DNA from: Terriglobus sp. RCC_193
Lineage (GTDB): Bacteria > Acidobacteriota > Terriglobia > Terriglobales > Acidobacteriaceae
DNA: 64,000 nt
Reading direction: 5' to 3'
Assembly (NCBI RefSeq): GCF_041355105.1
Contig: NZ_JBFUPK010000002.1
Span: 1,184,037-1,248,036, forward strand
The position numbers and the translations under genes are program-made. The notes beneath the pieces are model-generated. The model did not search any database and had not been told where the DNA came from. It saw only the letters and a program-made list of their open reading frames with translations. How positions within the stretch are numbered: the first letter of the stretch is position 1; every line of letters begins with the position of its first letter. Shown here one piece after another: positions 27,188-32,255 of this stretch.

Positions 27188-27255
27188 TGGTGGAAGGAAT
27201 TTTTCTTTTTTACGCGCGTATCACCATGGGGTGGGTACCCCCTCCCCCTGTTTTT

Positions 27256-27345
27256 GCAAAATCGTCTTTCGATTGGACTTACGGCGCTGGTGGCTGCAAA
27301 ATCGTCTGTCCATTGGGGTTAGGGGCAAAATCGTCTTTCTAAAGG
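27256..27345. repeat. Three imperfect GCAAAATCGTC repeats
   Basis: The unit GCAAAATCGTCTTTC(x)ATTGG(G)GTTA appears three times, starting at 27256, 27296 and 27325, with small variations. No gene is visible. On the minus strand the repeats make a spurious arginine-rich reading frame. They lie between the padR operators and the retron island. Confidence 0.7.
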
Positions 27346-27356
27346 GGTTAGTTTTT

Positions 27357-27395
27357 ACAGGGAACAGGGAACAGGGAACAGGGAACAGGGAACAG
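27357..27395. repeat. Heptanucleotide tandem repeat (GGAACAG)5
   Basis: Five exact copies of the seven-base unit GGAACAG (27361-27395) follow a partial copy at 27357. Seven-base tandem repeats mutate by slippage and are a feature of some cyanobacterial and acidobacterial intergenic regions. The remaining DNA up to the reverse transcriptase gene at 27566 holds no gene that I can see. Confidence 0.85.
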
Positions 27396-27565
27396 CGGAG
27401 CGGCGAGGCCTGAAGACAGCCCCTGGCTTCTATTGTAGTGAGGCTGGAGGGGAAACATGCCAACTGTATTTGGATTGGAATGAGTGGATTAGGTGGTTTG
27501 GGGGCTTGACAGGAATTCGGCAGCGGGACATTTACCGGTATTGATCGTCAGCACACAGAGCTATG

Positions 27566-28684
27566 TCAGGGCCAATCAATCTCATTGAACCGGTGGAGAA
27601 GAGGACTAGCGTAGCTGCTGTCAACCATGTTCGCGAAATCAATTAGGCCTCTGATATGTCTTCGCATGCCGGAGATGCTATCGAATTGTCTTTTCCGTGC
27701 GTGTTTGGCTACATCGTCTTCTAGGTAATGAAAATGCTGCCTAAGAAGAGATTTGAATTCTCGAGGTAGTGCAGGAGTTACACCATCGACAAGCAAGCCC
27801 AATACAACCTTGCGGGAGCCAGGTGGCGTGATTGTAGTTTTCGTAGCCTTTAGGCGAAGCCCCTCGGATACGAGGCATTTTTGAACTTTCTTTTGTAAAG
27901 CTTTGGCTTGGGCGCGAGAATACTTCGTACTTTTAGTGGAAAATGTCAGGTCGTCCGCATATCTCGTATAGACAAGACCGTGCTCCTTGCCGATGAGCAT
28001 CAACACTTCATCCAGTTCTCGCATGACCAAATTAGAGAGCATGGGGCTAGTAGGTGCTCCCTGCGGTAGATACCCAATCCCCTTGTGCTCATAAAAATCG
28101 ATGTTGGATTGATGCCAATTTCTCCAAGCACCTAGTTCATAGCGAGGACTCATCTCCGGCGCGAAGGTGCAGATTCGGGAGAGCTCAAAGGAAACGAGAC
28201 GCCCATAATTCAAAGATCTGAACACGCGATAGACTTGGATTTCAGAGATGGAGGTGAAGAAGTCTCTGACGTCAAACTTTATTAACCACTGAGCTCCACA
28301 ATGCTTTGAAGCACATTTGACGATCGATGATCCCGGAGAAAAGGCAAAGCTGCGCCGATGGACTTGGATTAAGTTGAGAAGATGCTCCGTAATCCATCGC
28401 TGAGCTTTCAGGAGTTCAGGTTCAGGAACAAAAATTAATCGAGCGCCTCCCGCACGTTTTCTTATGTAGAAATGGCGATAAGCTTTCTGGTCATGTGAAA
28501 CGAAGCGTCTTAAGCTTGAGTAAGAAACATCTGCTCTAGTCGCAAAATGCTTCAGCGTCAAGAGAGCTGGAGGATGCGGGATAGGCTCAATTACTGCCTC
28601 GATCTGCTGCACTGCCGCTTCTAGAATCTCATCTGAGATTCCTTGAGACTTGCCTAGCTTGGTGTAAAGCTGAGAAGACCACAT
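27566..28684 (-). CDS. Retron-type reverse transcriptase
   Basis: A 372-residue reverse transcriptase that should copy part of the adjacent RNA into msDNA. Palm motifs are clear: HFYIRKRAGGARLIFVPEP, WLIKFDVRDFFTSI (first catalytic Asp), LPQGAPTSPMLSNL (retron form) and RYADDLTF with YADD at residues 242-245, then GLRLKATKT. There is no maturase or endonuclease domain, so it is not a group II intron protein. The region-Y VTG motif reads VLG (KVVLGLLVDG). The assumed ATG 28684 lacks a good Shine-Dalgarno and lies inside the a2 arm of the RNA; the frame is open upstream through the RNA. Base composition is clearly lower in GC than neighbouring genes. Confidence 0.92.
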   Translation of the reverse strand: MWSSQLYTKLGKSQGISDEILEAAVQQIEAVIEPIPHPPALLTLKHFATRADVSYSSLRRFVSHDQKAYRHFYIRKRAGGARLIFVPEPELLKAQRWITEHLLNLIQVHRRSFAFSPGSSIVKCASKHCGAQWLIKFDVRDFFTSISEIQVYRVFRSLNYGRLVSFELSRICTFAPEMSPRYELGAWRNWHQSNIDFYEHKGIGYLPQGAPTSPMLSNLVMRELDEVLMLIGKEHGLVYTRYADDLTFSTKSTKYSRAQAKALQKKVQKCLVSEGLRLKATKTTITPPGSRKVVLGLLVDGVTPALPREFKSLLRQHFHYLEDDVAKHARKRQFDSISGMRRHIRGLIDFANMVDSSYASPLLHRFNEIDWP

Positions 28685-28890
28685 AGGGCTACTTTGACGC
28701 TTCGAAGCGGAGAGTACGAGGACGAATCCGCCTAAGGCATGCGAGGGAATGAGGATTTGTCCTCGTCCTCTGCTATGCCTAGGCACTTCCATAGGGTTTC
28801 GGTAAATCCTAGCCCCCGCATGCAGAAATTGATCTGCATGCCTTTGTTCGGTCTTTCGACCGACCACTAGCGACTATGTGGTCTTTCTCA
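28671..28890 (-). ncRNA. Retron msr-msd non-coding RNA
   Basis: Between effector and reverse transcriptase the minus strand is framed by a long inverted repeat: a1 at 28890-28874 (TGAGAAAGACCACATAG) and a2 at 28686-28671 (CTATGTGGTCTTCTCA), complementary over 16 bases with one bulged A. Inside, reading 5' to 3', are a TCGGTC-gaaa-GACCGA hairpin (28863-28848), a 9-bp GCATGCAGA hairpin (28841-28818), and a longer arm pairing GAGGACGAGGAC (28770-28759) with GTCCTCGTACTC (28723-28712) in 11 of 12 positions plus an inner ATCC/GGAT pair. This is the layout of msr followed by msd. The branching G is probably in the TAGTCGCTAG just after a1. Exact ends are inferred. Confidence 0.78.
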
Positions 28891-30097
28891 ACATTTGAGG
28901 ATAATAACCGTCATTACCGAGAGGCGCAATTACTTTAACACGCTCGCTCCGTTGAGCGGCCCTCAGTTCAGCTGAACCAGAAGACGTGAGTCGAAGCCGT
29001 TGCGTCAATAAACCCCAATTCATGCAACTTTTTAGATGAGTGGCACACTCGCTCTCTGTTAAGCCAGTCGCAAAGCTGAGCGCTCCAGGAGTTCTGATCC
29101 CTTTCTCGGCAAAGGCAAGTATGAGAAGGGTTTCTTGGCTGAGAGATAAATTTGCCGGAAGAGTCCCAGCAAGTCGGGTCTGACCTGCATCAATCAACAG
29201 GTCGAGGGGATCTCGTCTCACAATCTCAAGTGGGAAGGCAGAAGTCTCTGGTGGGAGGACTGCTTTTGAAGGGAAAAGCGGAACCCATTGTTTATTTTTT
29301 GCAGGATCGCTCCATAGAATCGCAGGGACATTATTGGGACATCCGTGCTCGAAGATGAGCAGGGCGGAAGAGCGACGAAACCCCAAGATAAAACTTTTTG
29401 CGGCTACACGAGCGCCATATTTCTTGCAAATGCCGCTCACGAGGTCTTTTTTACTTTCAAACCATGGAACTGTTCGCAATGTGGGACAAATTCGTCCGTA
29501 AATAACTTCTGGGGCACACTTGTGCTTTGATACTCGATCAAGGCCAGCTTCCGTAACTGCATATGCAAGTATGATGAAGCGGATATCACTTCTAGACTTC
29601 CATGAACGCAAACTGCGGTTATCCCATAAAGCATCCAGATAGCTGCATACACGCTTACCCGAACCGATCAGGTCATCCACAACGATGATCGCGTCACACT
29701 GTGATGCCACCATCTCTGCTTTGTTGGGGTGATTTAGAAGCTGACTAGGATTTGTCTTGCATAAAGATCGAATCGTCGCTGCGACTCTCGCTTCGCTTCC
29801 AAGATCATGCCCAGGGTTAACACCATCCACTTCAGAGGGGCCCTCAGCAGCATTAAGCTTTTTCGCGAAATCACATATATCTTCGATCTCACGAGCGGAA
29901 AAAAACGCCACAGGTGCTCCAACCTTAGTCGCCGTATCAAGGATTCGACGGCTAAGGTCCCTTTGGAAAGAAGAATGAGATACGAGAGTTAACGCCCAGA
30001 CAAGTTGCGACGCCGCTTCGACATCTTCGTCATCGAATTGTCCAACCCACTGCTGCCCGCGCTCCGTTAGGAGCAACTTTTGATTTATCTCTCTCAT
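28874..30097 (-). CDS. Retron effector: phosphoribosyltransferase-like protein with C-terminal winged helix
   Basis: A 407-residue protein. The PRPP-binding-type loop is IIVVDDLIGSGKRV (residues 137-150), the hallmark of PRTase-fold proteins, within an alpha/beta core. The C-terminal part from about residue 322 (LSQETLLILAFAEKGIRTPG and CMNWGLLTQRLRLTSSG) has the pattern of a winged helix. PRTase plus winged-helix effectors are known with one group of retrons (type III in the Mestre scheme, from memory). Its stop codon lies inside the a1 arm of the RNA. ATG 30097 has GGAG seven bases upstream, 46 bases after the M14 gene. The GC content is low, like the reverse transcriptase. The toxic reaction is unknown. 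Confidence 0.85.
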   Translation of the reverse strand: MREINQKLLLTERGQQWVGQFDDEDVEAASQLVWALTLVSHSSFQRDLSRRILDTATKVGAPVAFFSAREIEDICDFAKKLNAAEGPSEVDGVNPGHDLGSEARVAATIRSLCKTNPSQLLNHPNKAEMVASQCDAIIVVDDLIGSGKRVCSYLDALWDNRSLRSWKSRSDIRFIILAYAVTEAGLDRVSKHKCAPEVIYGRICPTLRTVPWFESKKDLVSGICKKYGARVAAKSFILGFRRSSALLIFEHGCPNNVPAILWSDPAKNKQWVPLFPSKAVLPPETSAFPLEIVRRDPLDLLIDAGQTRLAGTLPANLSLSQETLLILAFAEKGIRTPGALSFATGLTESECATHLKSCMNWGLLTQRLRLTSSGSAELRAAQRSERVKVIAPLGNDGYYPQMLRKTT

Positions 30098-30143
30098 GAG
30101 AAGGCTCCGGCTTTCTTAAGAAAAACCTCCGTCGAAGAGCATT

Positions 30144-32255
30144 TCACCAAATCTTAGTCCAGACTTCTGCGATGGGGTATTTGTTTACTGCTGGGGGTTG
30201 GTAGTTGCTGCGTTCGATCCACCATTTTAGGCGGGCGTCGGGGTCTTTGGCGAAGGTTGGGTCGGTGTCTACTTTGGTCTGGAATTCTTTCCAGAGTTCG
30301 GGATGGTCGGCGGCTTCTTTTGTTGCGATCGGGACGCTTAGGTATTCGGCTGCGCCGATGCGGCCGCCGGGTCCGAAGACGGCGTCGAAGAAGCCCCAGC
30401 GGAGGAGTGCGTCCGGTGCCTGCGGGTGGAGCATGGCCATGATGATGCGTGCGCGGGGCTGGTTCATGGGGATGTAGTAGCTGCCTGCGGGCATGTGCAT
30501 CTTTTCCTTGACCGGCATGGGTGTGTAGTCGGTAAAGGTGCGGCCTTCGAAGAGGGCGGTCTGCTTCTTGACGTCGGTGAAACGCCAGGTGTCGAAGGTC
30601 TGGTCGGAGAGGTCCCTGGTGGTGCGCTCCATGGTGACGCCCTGGAGTGCGAGCAGTTCTGCGATGTTGCTCCATGCGGCGGGGATGAGGAAGCCGGTGG
30701 GGACGGGCGCAGAGGCGGTGGTGTCGACGCCGTCGTGCATGTTGACGGTGAAATCGTCCTTCTCTGCTGTGAAGTGTTGCACGGGTTTGCCAGTGATGGG
30801 GCTTACTTCCGTACCGCGCTTGAGGGAGTGGTAGGTGATGGGGTGCGACTCGGCGCTGGTTTTGCCGCCGAGGAACATCTTTTCGTTCTTGTTGCCGGCG
30901 AGGGCTGCGTCTGCGGCGTCGCTGTCACGCACGGCTTTGCGCAGTGCCTGTGGGTCTTCTGTGACGATGTCGATGGAGTGGACCATGATGTCGTAGTTGG
31001 ACCATGCGCGGGTTTTGGGGAGTTTGAGCGAGTGCGTTTCGACCAACAGGCATGGGCGATTGCGCGCGCCGGACCAGTAGTGGGAGTAGCGCGGGGAGAA
31101 GACTTCGACCATGAAGTCTCGCTGGCCGTTGGTGCTGGCTGGGGCCTGGCGTGCGGCGCGGTCGTCGCCACTGGGGGCGCTGGAAGGGGACCTGGGCGTT
31201 CCCTCAGCGGCTAAAGCCGCTTGTTCTGGTTGGGTTTGACGGCCCGGCTGAAGCCGGGCCCCTTCAGAGCTTCCGTTGTTTGTGTTGTTACCGCTGTTTG
31301 CGTTGTTGCGGCGGGCTGGCTGGCCTCCTGCTGCTGGTGGTGCTAGTGGGCTGCCGCCGCCACCGGCGAAGCCCATGCCGTCACCTCTTAAAGCGCCGTA
31401 GGGGCTGACGAGATGGCCGTCGGCTTCCATGCGTTTGTTGAGTTGCGGGATGAAGCGCGAGTTGACCCAGTCGCGTGAGCCGGGGCCGATGTCGTCGTGG
31501 TGGGTCATATCCCAGGTGACGTCGTACTGGTAGTCGGCGCCGTCGGTGACGTGGTTGTCGAACATGAAGTCAGGCAGCCAGGTGTTGTAGAGCTTGAGGA
31601 AGGCGCGGGTTTCGGGCGCGTCGGCCTTGATGTAGTCGCGGTTGAGGTTGAGCTGCTGCTCCTGCGGGCGGGTGCCGGTGATGTCGGGGCCATTCTGGTT
31701 GGCGCGGTTGTAGGGGCTGCGGTCTTCGTGGCCGTCGATCTCATAGACGGGGATGACGACGAAGATGGCCTTGTCGAGCCACGCAGCCTGCTTGGGGTGG
31801 TTGGTTACTGCCATGTCGCGCATGAGCATGAGCGCGGTGTCCTTGCCTTCGATTTCGCCGGAGTGAATGCCGCTCTGGATGAGGATGACGGCCTTATCGG
31901 TTTTGTGTGCGGCTTCGGGTGTGAAGGCCTTGTCCTTGCTGATGATGGCGGCGTACATGGTGCGGCCTTCAGGCGTGGTGCCGAAGGGGATGACCTTGAT
32001 GAACTTGCTGCGCTTCTCGTAGAGACGCATCATGGCGACGGTTTCGTCGTAGCGGCCGGTCTTCTCCCAGTTGGTTTTTTCGCCGGTGGTGAGCTCGTCC
32101 TGCGGGACGCCCTTTGTTGAGTCGGCGAGGGATTTTGCGGCGGATGCGGCGGGTGGCTCATACATGCTGTGCGGGCGGAGCTGCGTGGTCTGCGCGAGAG
32201 CGGCGATGGGCATGAGCAGAACGGCGGTGCGAGCGAGTGACGTGGCGCGAAACAT
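30144..32255 (-). CDS. M14 family zinc carboxypeptidase, exported
   Basis: A 703-residue exported metallopeptidase. A signal peptide (MFRATSLARTAVLLMPIAAL) starts at ATG 32255 with GGAAGGAA upstream. The M14 zinc motif HxxE is HSGEIEG in ILIQSGIHSGEIEG; conserved substrate-site sequence QNGPDITGTRPQEQQLNLNR follows and a later DNHVTDG may give the third ligand. The enzyme probably trims peptides outside the cytoplasm. In the middle, after a Gly/Asn-rich linker, about 27 residues (SEGARLQPGRQ to AAEGTPRSP) are the translation of a palindromic intergenic-type repeat at 31188-31270 that keeps the frame. The retron effector gene follows 46 bases downstream. Confidence 0.88.
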   Translation of the reverse strand: MFRATSLARTAVLLMPIAALAQTTQLRPHSMYEPPAASAAKSLADSTKGVPQDELTTGEKTNWEKTGRYDETVAMMRLYEKRSKFIKVIPFGTTPEGRTMYAAIISKDKAFTPEAAHKTDKAVILIQSGIHSGEIEGKDTALMLMRDMAVTNHPKQAAWLDKAIFVVIPVYEIDGHEDRSPYNRANQNGPDITGTRPQEQQLNLNRDYIKADAPETRAFLKLYNTWLPDFMFDNHVTDGADYQYDVTWDMTHHDDIGPGSRDWVNSRFIPQLNKRMEADGHLVSPYGALRGDGMGFAGGGGSPLAPPAAGGQPARRNNANSGNNTNNGSSEGARLQPGRQTQPEQAALAAEGTPRSPSSAPSGDDRAARQAPASTNGQRDFMVEVFSPRYSHYWSGARNRPCLLVETHSLKLPKTRAWSNYDIMVHSIDIVTEDPQALRKAVRDSDAADAALAGNKNEKMFLGGKTSAESHPITYHSLKRGTEVSPITGKPVQHFTAEKDDFTVNMHDGVDTTASAPVPTGFLIPAAWSNIAELLALQGVTMERTTRDLSDQTFDTWRFTDVKKQTALFEGRTFTDYTPMPVKEKMHMPAGSYYIPMNQPRARIIMAMLHPQAPDALLRWGFFDAVFGPGGRIGAAEYLSVPIATKEAADHPELWKEFQTKVDTDPTFAKDPDARLKWWIERSNYQPPAVNKYPIAEVWTKIW
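31188..31270. repeat. Palindromic repeat embedded in frame in the M14 gene
   Basis: Two hairpins lie inside the coding region: AGCGGC-taaa-GCCGCT (31206-31221) and GGCCCGGC-tgaa-GCCGGGCC (31241-31260), joined by TTGTTCTGGTTGGGTTTGA. They share the GGCT(G/A)AAGCC core with the intergenic element at 1178-1252. The insertion preserves the reading frame. Confidence 0.75.

Follow-up and report, generated by a model that had tools for sequence, protein, structure and literature searches.

The question raised by this locus is whether the effector-like gene, the structured RNA and the reverse transcriptase (RT) that lie together in the window (the whole 64,000-nt stretch of Terriglobus sp. RCC_193 DNA that was analysed) form a complete retron, and if they do, of which type and with what likely role. 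A preliminary description had claimed a complete tripartite retron with the minus-strand order effector, RNA, RT. Direct reading and the open reading frames place the effector at 28874-30097, the RNA (220 nt) at 28671-28890 and the RT at 27566-28684, all on the minus strand; both frames and the RNA are where that description put them, and the three parts belong to the PRTase-associated type III class. The features are as follows.

27518-30145, minus strand: variable segment filled by the retron, between borders shared with its two closest sequenced sister species (blastn and border alignment)
28874-30097, minus strand: fused effector of 407 aa, ATG 30097 to stop TAG 28876-28874
29270-30055, minus strand: PRTase-CE domain, residues 15-276 (Pfam PF24390, 4.5e-25)
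29648-29689, minus strand: PRPP-type loop IIVVDDLIGSGKRV, residues 137-150 (homologue alignment)
28886-29128, minus strand: winged-helix domain (wHTH-PRTase_assc), residues 324-404 (Pfam PF24409, 3.3e-18)
28671-28890, minus strand: msr-msd non-coding RNA, a1 to a2 (fold and covariation, 19 homologues)
28874-28890, minus strand: a1 arm TGAGAAAGACCACATAG, overlapping the 3' end of the effector gene with its final codons and stop (direct reading)
28867, minus strand: candidate branch (priming) G in conserved UAGUG, by likeness to known retrons
28818-28841, minus strand: msr stem-loop GCATGCAGA/TCTGCATGC (fold; the equivalent helix 3 covaries)
28716-28766, minus strand: msd stem-loop, arms 28766-28753 and 28729-28716 (ACGAGGACAAATCC / GGATTCGTCCTCGT; consensus helix 7)
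28698-28709, minus strand: short 3' hairpin CGCTTCGAAGCG before conserved AAGTA (fold and alignment)
28671-28686, minus strand: a2 arm CTATGTGGTCTTCTCA, which includes the start codon of the RT, ATG 28684 (direct reading)
27566-28684, minus strand: retron RT of 372 aa, from ATG 28684 (PADLOC RT_III-A PDLC02944, 1.1e-164)
27950-27961, minus strand: YADD catalytic motif (direct reading, motif table)

The effector-RNA-RT order on one strand is that of retron III-A, as is the combination of a PRTase-CE effector with a winged helix, fused or adjacent (Pfam, PADLOC). Two features general to retrons were also found: an RT of retron lineage (PADLOC, NCBIfam, PDB profiles, tree and Foldseek) and a structured, a1/a2-bounded msr-msd RNA beside it. 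Judged by its sequence, the locus is almost certainly a type III-A retron; it is a genuine and complete member of the fused III-A subgroup and probably functional.

Effector and RNA

The preliminary description had seen a PRPP-type loop and a C-terminal winged helix in the effector, and both are present, the loop at residues 137-150 and the PF24409 domain at 324-404. The comparison with PRTase-CE and retron profiles that it had called for gave PF24390 at 4.5e-25 and an end-to-end match to PADLOC PRTase_III-A (PDLC02933, 2.3e-104, residues 5-406). Within the loop, D142, G145 and G147 are invariant among 36 homologues. The PRTase domain matched no solved structure by sequence in a profile search of the PDB. 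The AlphaFold2 model of the effector (pLDDT 82.6, pTM 0.77) had uracil and xanthine-guanine PRTases as its best Foldseek matches, weakly (E 4.5e-3), which supports a PRTase fold in a divergent domain.

The weak PDB sequence matches of the effector profile in the winged-helix region were MarR/ArsR-type regulators. This could suggest that the effector acts through its winged helix as a transcription regulator, controlling its own operon or host genes, and not as a released toxin. However, a retron RT accompanies the PRTase and winged helix in fused and split forms alike and the PRPP loop is conserved, and such a regulator seems very unlikely. The PF24409 profile itself carries no information on the partner that the winged helix binds. 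The fusion of PRTase and winged helix in one chain had been presented as a notable feature. This part of the preliminary description does not hold, as the same fusion occurs in about 50 fetched loci and PADLOC already models fused forms at full length as well as split forms.

The claim of a structured RNA framed by an a1/a2 inverted repeat is borne out by its fold, by covariation and by the pairing of its own arms. The a1 arm (28890-28874) pairs with a2 (28686-28671) over 16 bp with one bulged A, and the minimum free energy (MFE) of the RNA is -103.1 kcal/mol compared to -66.9 +/- 4.75 for shuffled sequences (z -7.62), with none of 200 shuffles as good. In an alignment of 19 homologous intergenic regions (264 columns), the RNAalifold consensus contains 38 pairs, and compensatory changes occur at 23 of these. 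Under this consensus structure 91.2% of pairing cells can pair and the covariation score reaches 0.530, compared to 74.6% and 0.231 in shuffles. When partners were slid by 1-3 columns, pairing was 41-49% and the covariation score 0.12-0.14, a comparison that favours the consensus structure because it was derived from the same alignment. The msd stem (helix 7) has compensatory both-side changes at 10 of its 11 pairs, and helix 3, the msr stem-loop, covaries at 6/6 pairs. The single-sequence MFE fold of the window pairs the msd region differently from the consensus, and for that reason it was replaced by the covariation-supported stem.

Across 43 loci, the duplex of a locus's own a1 and a2 averages -35.4 kcal/mol versus -22.2 for mismatched arms. 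It is the best of all candidates in 20 of these loci, the window included, where the own duplex beats 42/42 foreign a2 partners. Since the stop codon of the effector lies within a1 and the start codon of the RT within a2, the conserved protein termini (LR... and MWSSQ) double as RNA arms. The RT was assigned the start ATG 28684 because its homologues start there (MWSSQ...) and the PADLOC profile aligns to the long ORF from residue 62 onwards; the GTG start at 28867 (ORF 27566-28867) was rejected, its extension overlapping the RNA and being absent from the profile. At the candidate branch site TAG is invariant in the 19 homologues, followed as TAGTG in 17 and TAGCG in 2. A conserved AGC has been described at the priming G of known retrons (PMC6868368), whereas this RNA and its homologues keep the AG and usually have U in place of the C. 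An Rfam search of the locus returned no family up to E 1, and in a promoter scan of the locus promoters were no more frequent than chance.

The reverse transcriptase and its signatures

YADD and LPQGAPTSP, both reported from the first reading of the RT, are present and intact. The possibility that the enzyme is a group II, DGR, Abi or DRT protein, and the locus no retron, was refuted by profiles, PDB search, Foldseek and tree, and its probability is practically nil. After RT_III-A the next PADLOC profile is type XIII (3.1e-72), and retron profiles match from 1e-164 to 1e-62 compared to 1.6e-18 for group II and 1.8e-11 for Drt2 (PADLOC; NCBIfam). A PDB profile search gave retron RTs at 3e-64 to 1e-16, Ec86 first (3e-64) and then Kva2, Ec83 and Ec78, with group II enzymes at 5e-15 or weaker. 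Foldseek with the AlphaFold2 model of the RT (pLDDT 90.8, pTM 0.85) likewise gave Ec86 (6e-23), then Eco7, Eco2 and Ec78, versus 7e-12 for group II and 1.8e-8 for DGR. Retron Ec86 (Eco1, type II-A) is thus the closest solved RT by both profile and fold and shares the tripartite layout, but its RT signatures differ from those of the window RT. The partner effector of Ec86 is nucleoside deoxyribosyltransferase-like, not a PRTase.

A maximum-likelihood tree of 62 RTs, together with PADLOC and Foldseek, answers the phylogenetic check proposed at the outset: the RT falls among PRTase-associated retrons, apart from group II-type enzymes. In this tree, which does not resolve the deep splits between retron types, the window RT groups with that of the nearest relative, L068 (100/98), within a fused III-A clade of 34 rows that has moderate support (86/96). 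Five RTs of related genomes, whose motifs are not those of retrons (TPQGGIISP and others, group II-type by eye), form a separate long branch.

The RT hallmarks NAxxH (region X) and VTG (region Y) are not found in the window RT, which has CASKH and VLG instead. According to the motif table, the N of NAxxH is lost across the 34-row clade (C/A/T/V-AxxH), as is the T of VTG (VLG or ILG, and VPG once). Both signatures, NAxxH and VTG, are kept in another fused group (L056-L065) and in L055, and in the split forms the N of region X and VTG/ITG are kept. It should be noted that both signatures vary in verified retrons, for example Eco6, and in retron-like RTs, and that only 47-59% of a 2014 RT set keep them (PMC6868368, PMC4244168). 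The signatures are therefore a hallmark and not a requirement, and the locus stays among the retrons.

These changes, and the fact that the retron's RT is the only one in the host genome, could instead be the marks of a real but decayed retron, in which msDNA synthesis has stopped and the effector is silent or stands alone. However, both frames are open, the YADD and LPQGAPTSP motifs are intact, RNA pairing is maintained, and the published variation in NAxxH and VTG applies here as well. As changes of the CASKH/VLG type are common to the 34-row clade, they are ancestral rather than a sign of decay, and we regard a decayed retron as highly improbable. The most unusual feature of the locus is this change of RT signatures across the clade, which includes a T-to-L change in the msr-recognition region. 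A stronger proposal is that the clade is a functionally distinct III-A branch, in which xAxxH, VLG and AGU might go with an altered chemistry of priming or msr recognition and the winged helix of the one-chain effector reads msDNA and gates an undescribed PRTase toxin activity; this is decidedly improbable.

Relatives and genomic setting

Relatives were collected by tblastn in plasmids, which gave 14 records (13/14 with a query coverage of 80% or more), and by alignment-based scans, which gave 42 loci in GTDB genomes and 2 in IMG/VR. A GTDB scan with the effector as a single sequence found no relatives; one-sequence patterns are too specific, as the alignment query gave the 42 loci. Viral contigs scanned with the RT alone and a phage collection scanned with the effector gave no match. 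In total, about 50 loci, mostly from Alpha-, Beta- and Gammaproteobacteria, have a fused effector and an RT in the same order, and nearly all have the fused effector, then about 150-200 nt, then the RT. The window copy is 48% identical to L068 in the effector and 54-56% in the RT. Among 396 genomes sampled from the phylum, a full-length fused effector was found only in the window's own genome, which suggests that it is rare in the phylum.

The window locus shares with the fused III-A form (PDLC02933/PDLC02944) the full-length effector, RT, gene order and RNA position. With the split form (L101 Vagococcus, L105 Priestia, L107 Acinetobacter) it shares the PRTase-CE domain and a III-A RT, but there the PRTase is followed by a separate winged-helix gene of about 105 aa and then the RT, whereas in the window these are one chain. 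The PRTases of L101 and L105 best match shorter PADLOC PRTase_III-A models, and their winged-helix genes match WH_III-A. PRTase-CE-like proteins were also seen at L024:3980-4981, L005, L006 and L007, where the fetched stretch yielded no III-A RT, and these may be part of other systems.

The retron has a GC content of 0.48-0.51 compared to about 0.58-0.60 in the flanks. The segment it fills is bordered on the left by the sequence from about 27517 (TTCCTGTCAAGCCC, minus strand) and on the right by the stop codon, at 30146, of a conserved peptidase-like gene (30144-32255) that directly precedes this variable-cargo site. The corresponding segments of the sister species, with shared borders, are L094:7569-10674 and L096:7519-10535. 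Each sister species has about 3 kb of cargo at the site: G031 carries genes for a glycosyltransferase 61 and a polysaccharide flippase, and G166 has unnamed ORFs along with a second copy of the peptidase 3' end. A search for an empty site found none, the sister species holding other cargo, and no RT was detected in G031 or G166. In G166 the duplicated stretch (L096:8247-8340) corresponds to the terminal ~94 nt of this peptidase-like gene, with 92.6% identity, as if an insertion had regenerated the end of that gene. In another genus member (G576, L097:6297-7679), a Schlafen AlbA_2/RecG-C-type gene directly follows the same peptidase-like gene, and its product resembles a pAgo-linked PADLOC model. 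Downstream of the window RT, at 27255-27402, a 30-nt unit (TGCAAAATCGTCTTTC...) occurs as three direct repeats that are 70-83% alike, with a short ACAGGGA tandem run nearby; this region is conserved in two sister species.

We infer that the retron was acquired horizontally; no integrase was seen beside the window copy, and any route of transfer is therefore conjectural. On its IMG/VR contig the L068 retron lies 2-4 kb from phage terminase genes, with HNH genes also nearby, and on the other side of it is a protein with relatives in the window's taxonomic family. This makes phage carriage in related hosts plausible, and the contig is probably a prophage of a related host.

That the nearest relative adjoins terminase genes and that many relatives sit on conjugative or mobilizable plasmids would also suit a toxin-antitoxin module, in which the PRTase kills on loss of an RT-msDNA antitoxin and so keeps the carrier element in place. 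The behaviour of two III-A retrons in E. coli points the same way: Retron-Ppe1 could not be transformed, and Retron-Bpu1 made RT-DNA with no defence against 12 phages (PMC12548924). However, the window copy is chromosomal, with no plasmid or phage genes seen in its immediate flanks, and a role purely of this kind is unlikely. As retrons of other types serve both as toxin-antitoxin systems and in defence, it is in any case compatible with a defence role.

Proposed function

At the level of sequence, the parts of a working system are in place: the catalytic residues of the RT and the PRPP-type loop are intact, and the msr-msd covaries. The RT would prime from the 2'-OH of G28867 and copy the msd hairpin into msDNA. 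The resulting RT-msDNA complex would hold the PRTase half inactive, perhaps via the winged-helix half, though direct contact of the winged helix with msDNA is a doubtful detail. Phage damage to or modification of the msDNA, or of a guarded host process, would then free the PRTase, which would use PRPP or nucleotide substrates and bring about cell arrest or death (abortive infection). Type III-A identity and an effector restrained by RT-msDNA are, taken jointly, quite probable, and an abortive-infection role is, by analogy, reasonably likely.

In other bacteria, RT-DNA of type III-A has been detected (PMC12548924). The anti-phage role named in the preliminary description is the one to be expected, but among published type III-A retrons Bpu1 gave no defence and Ppe1 could not be transformed (PMC12548924). 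Defence against T7 and lambda is described for a DprA-PRTase pair, in a paper whose authors call the mode of action of the retron PRTase unknown (PMC9122126). By its described role that pair resembles the present locus in having a PRTase as probable effector alongside a nucleic-acid sensor, but its sensor is a protein, with no RT or RNA.

As a discovery the locus is ordinary, since this retron class has been catalogued before; it is a well-formed additional member that is rare in its host group. Its one-chain effector and well-defined RNA make it a convenient test case for the PRTase class, and the set of about 50 loci with a covarying RNA allows mutational predictions for the PRPP-loop aspartate, the winged helix and the msd stem.
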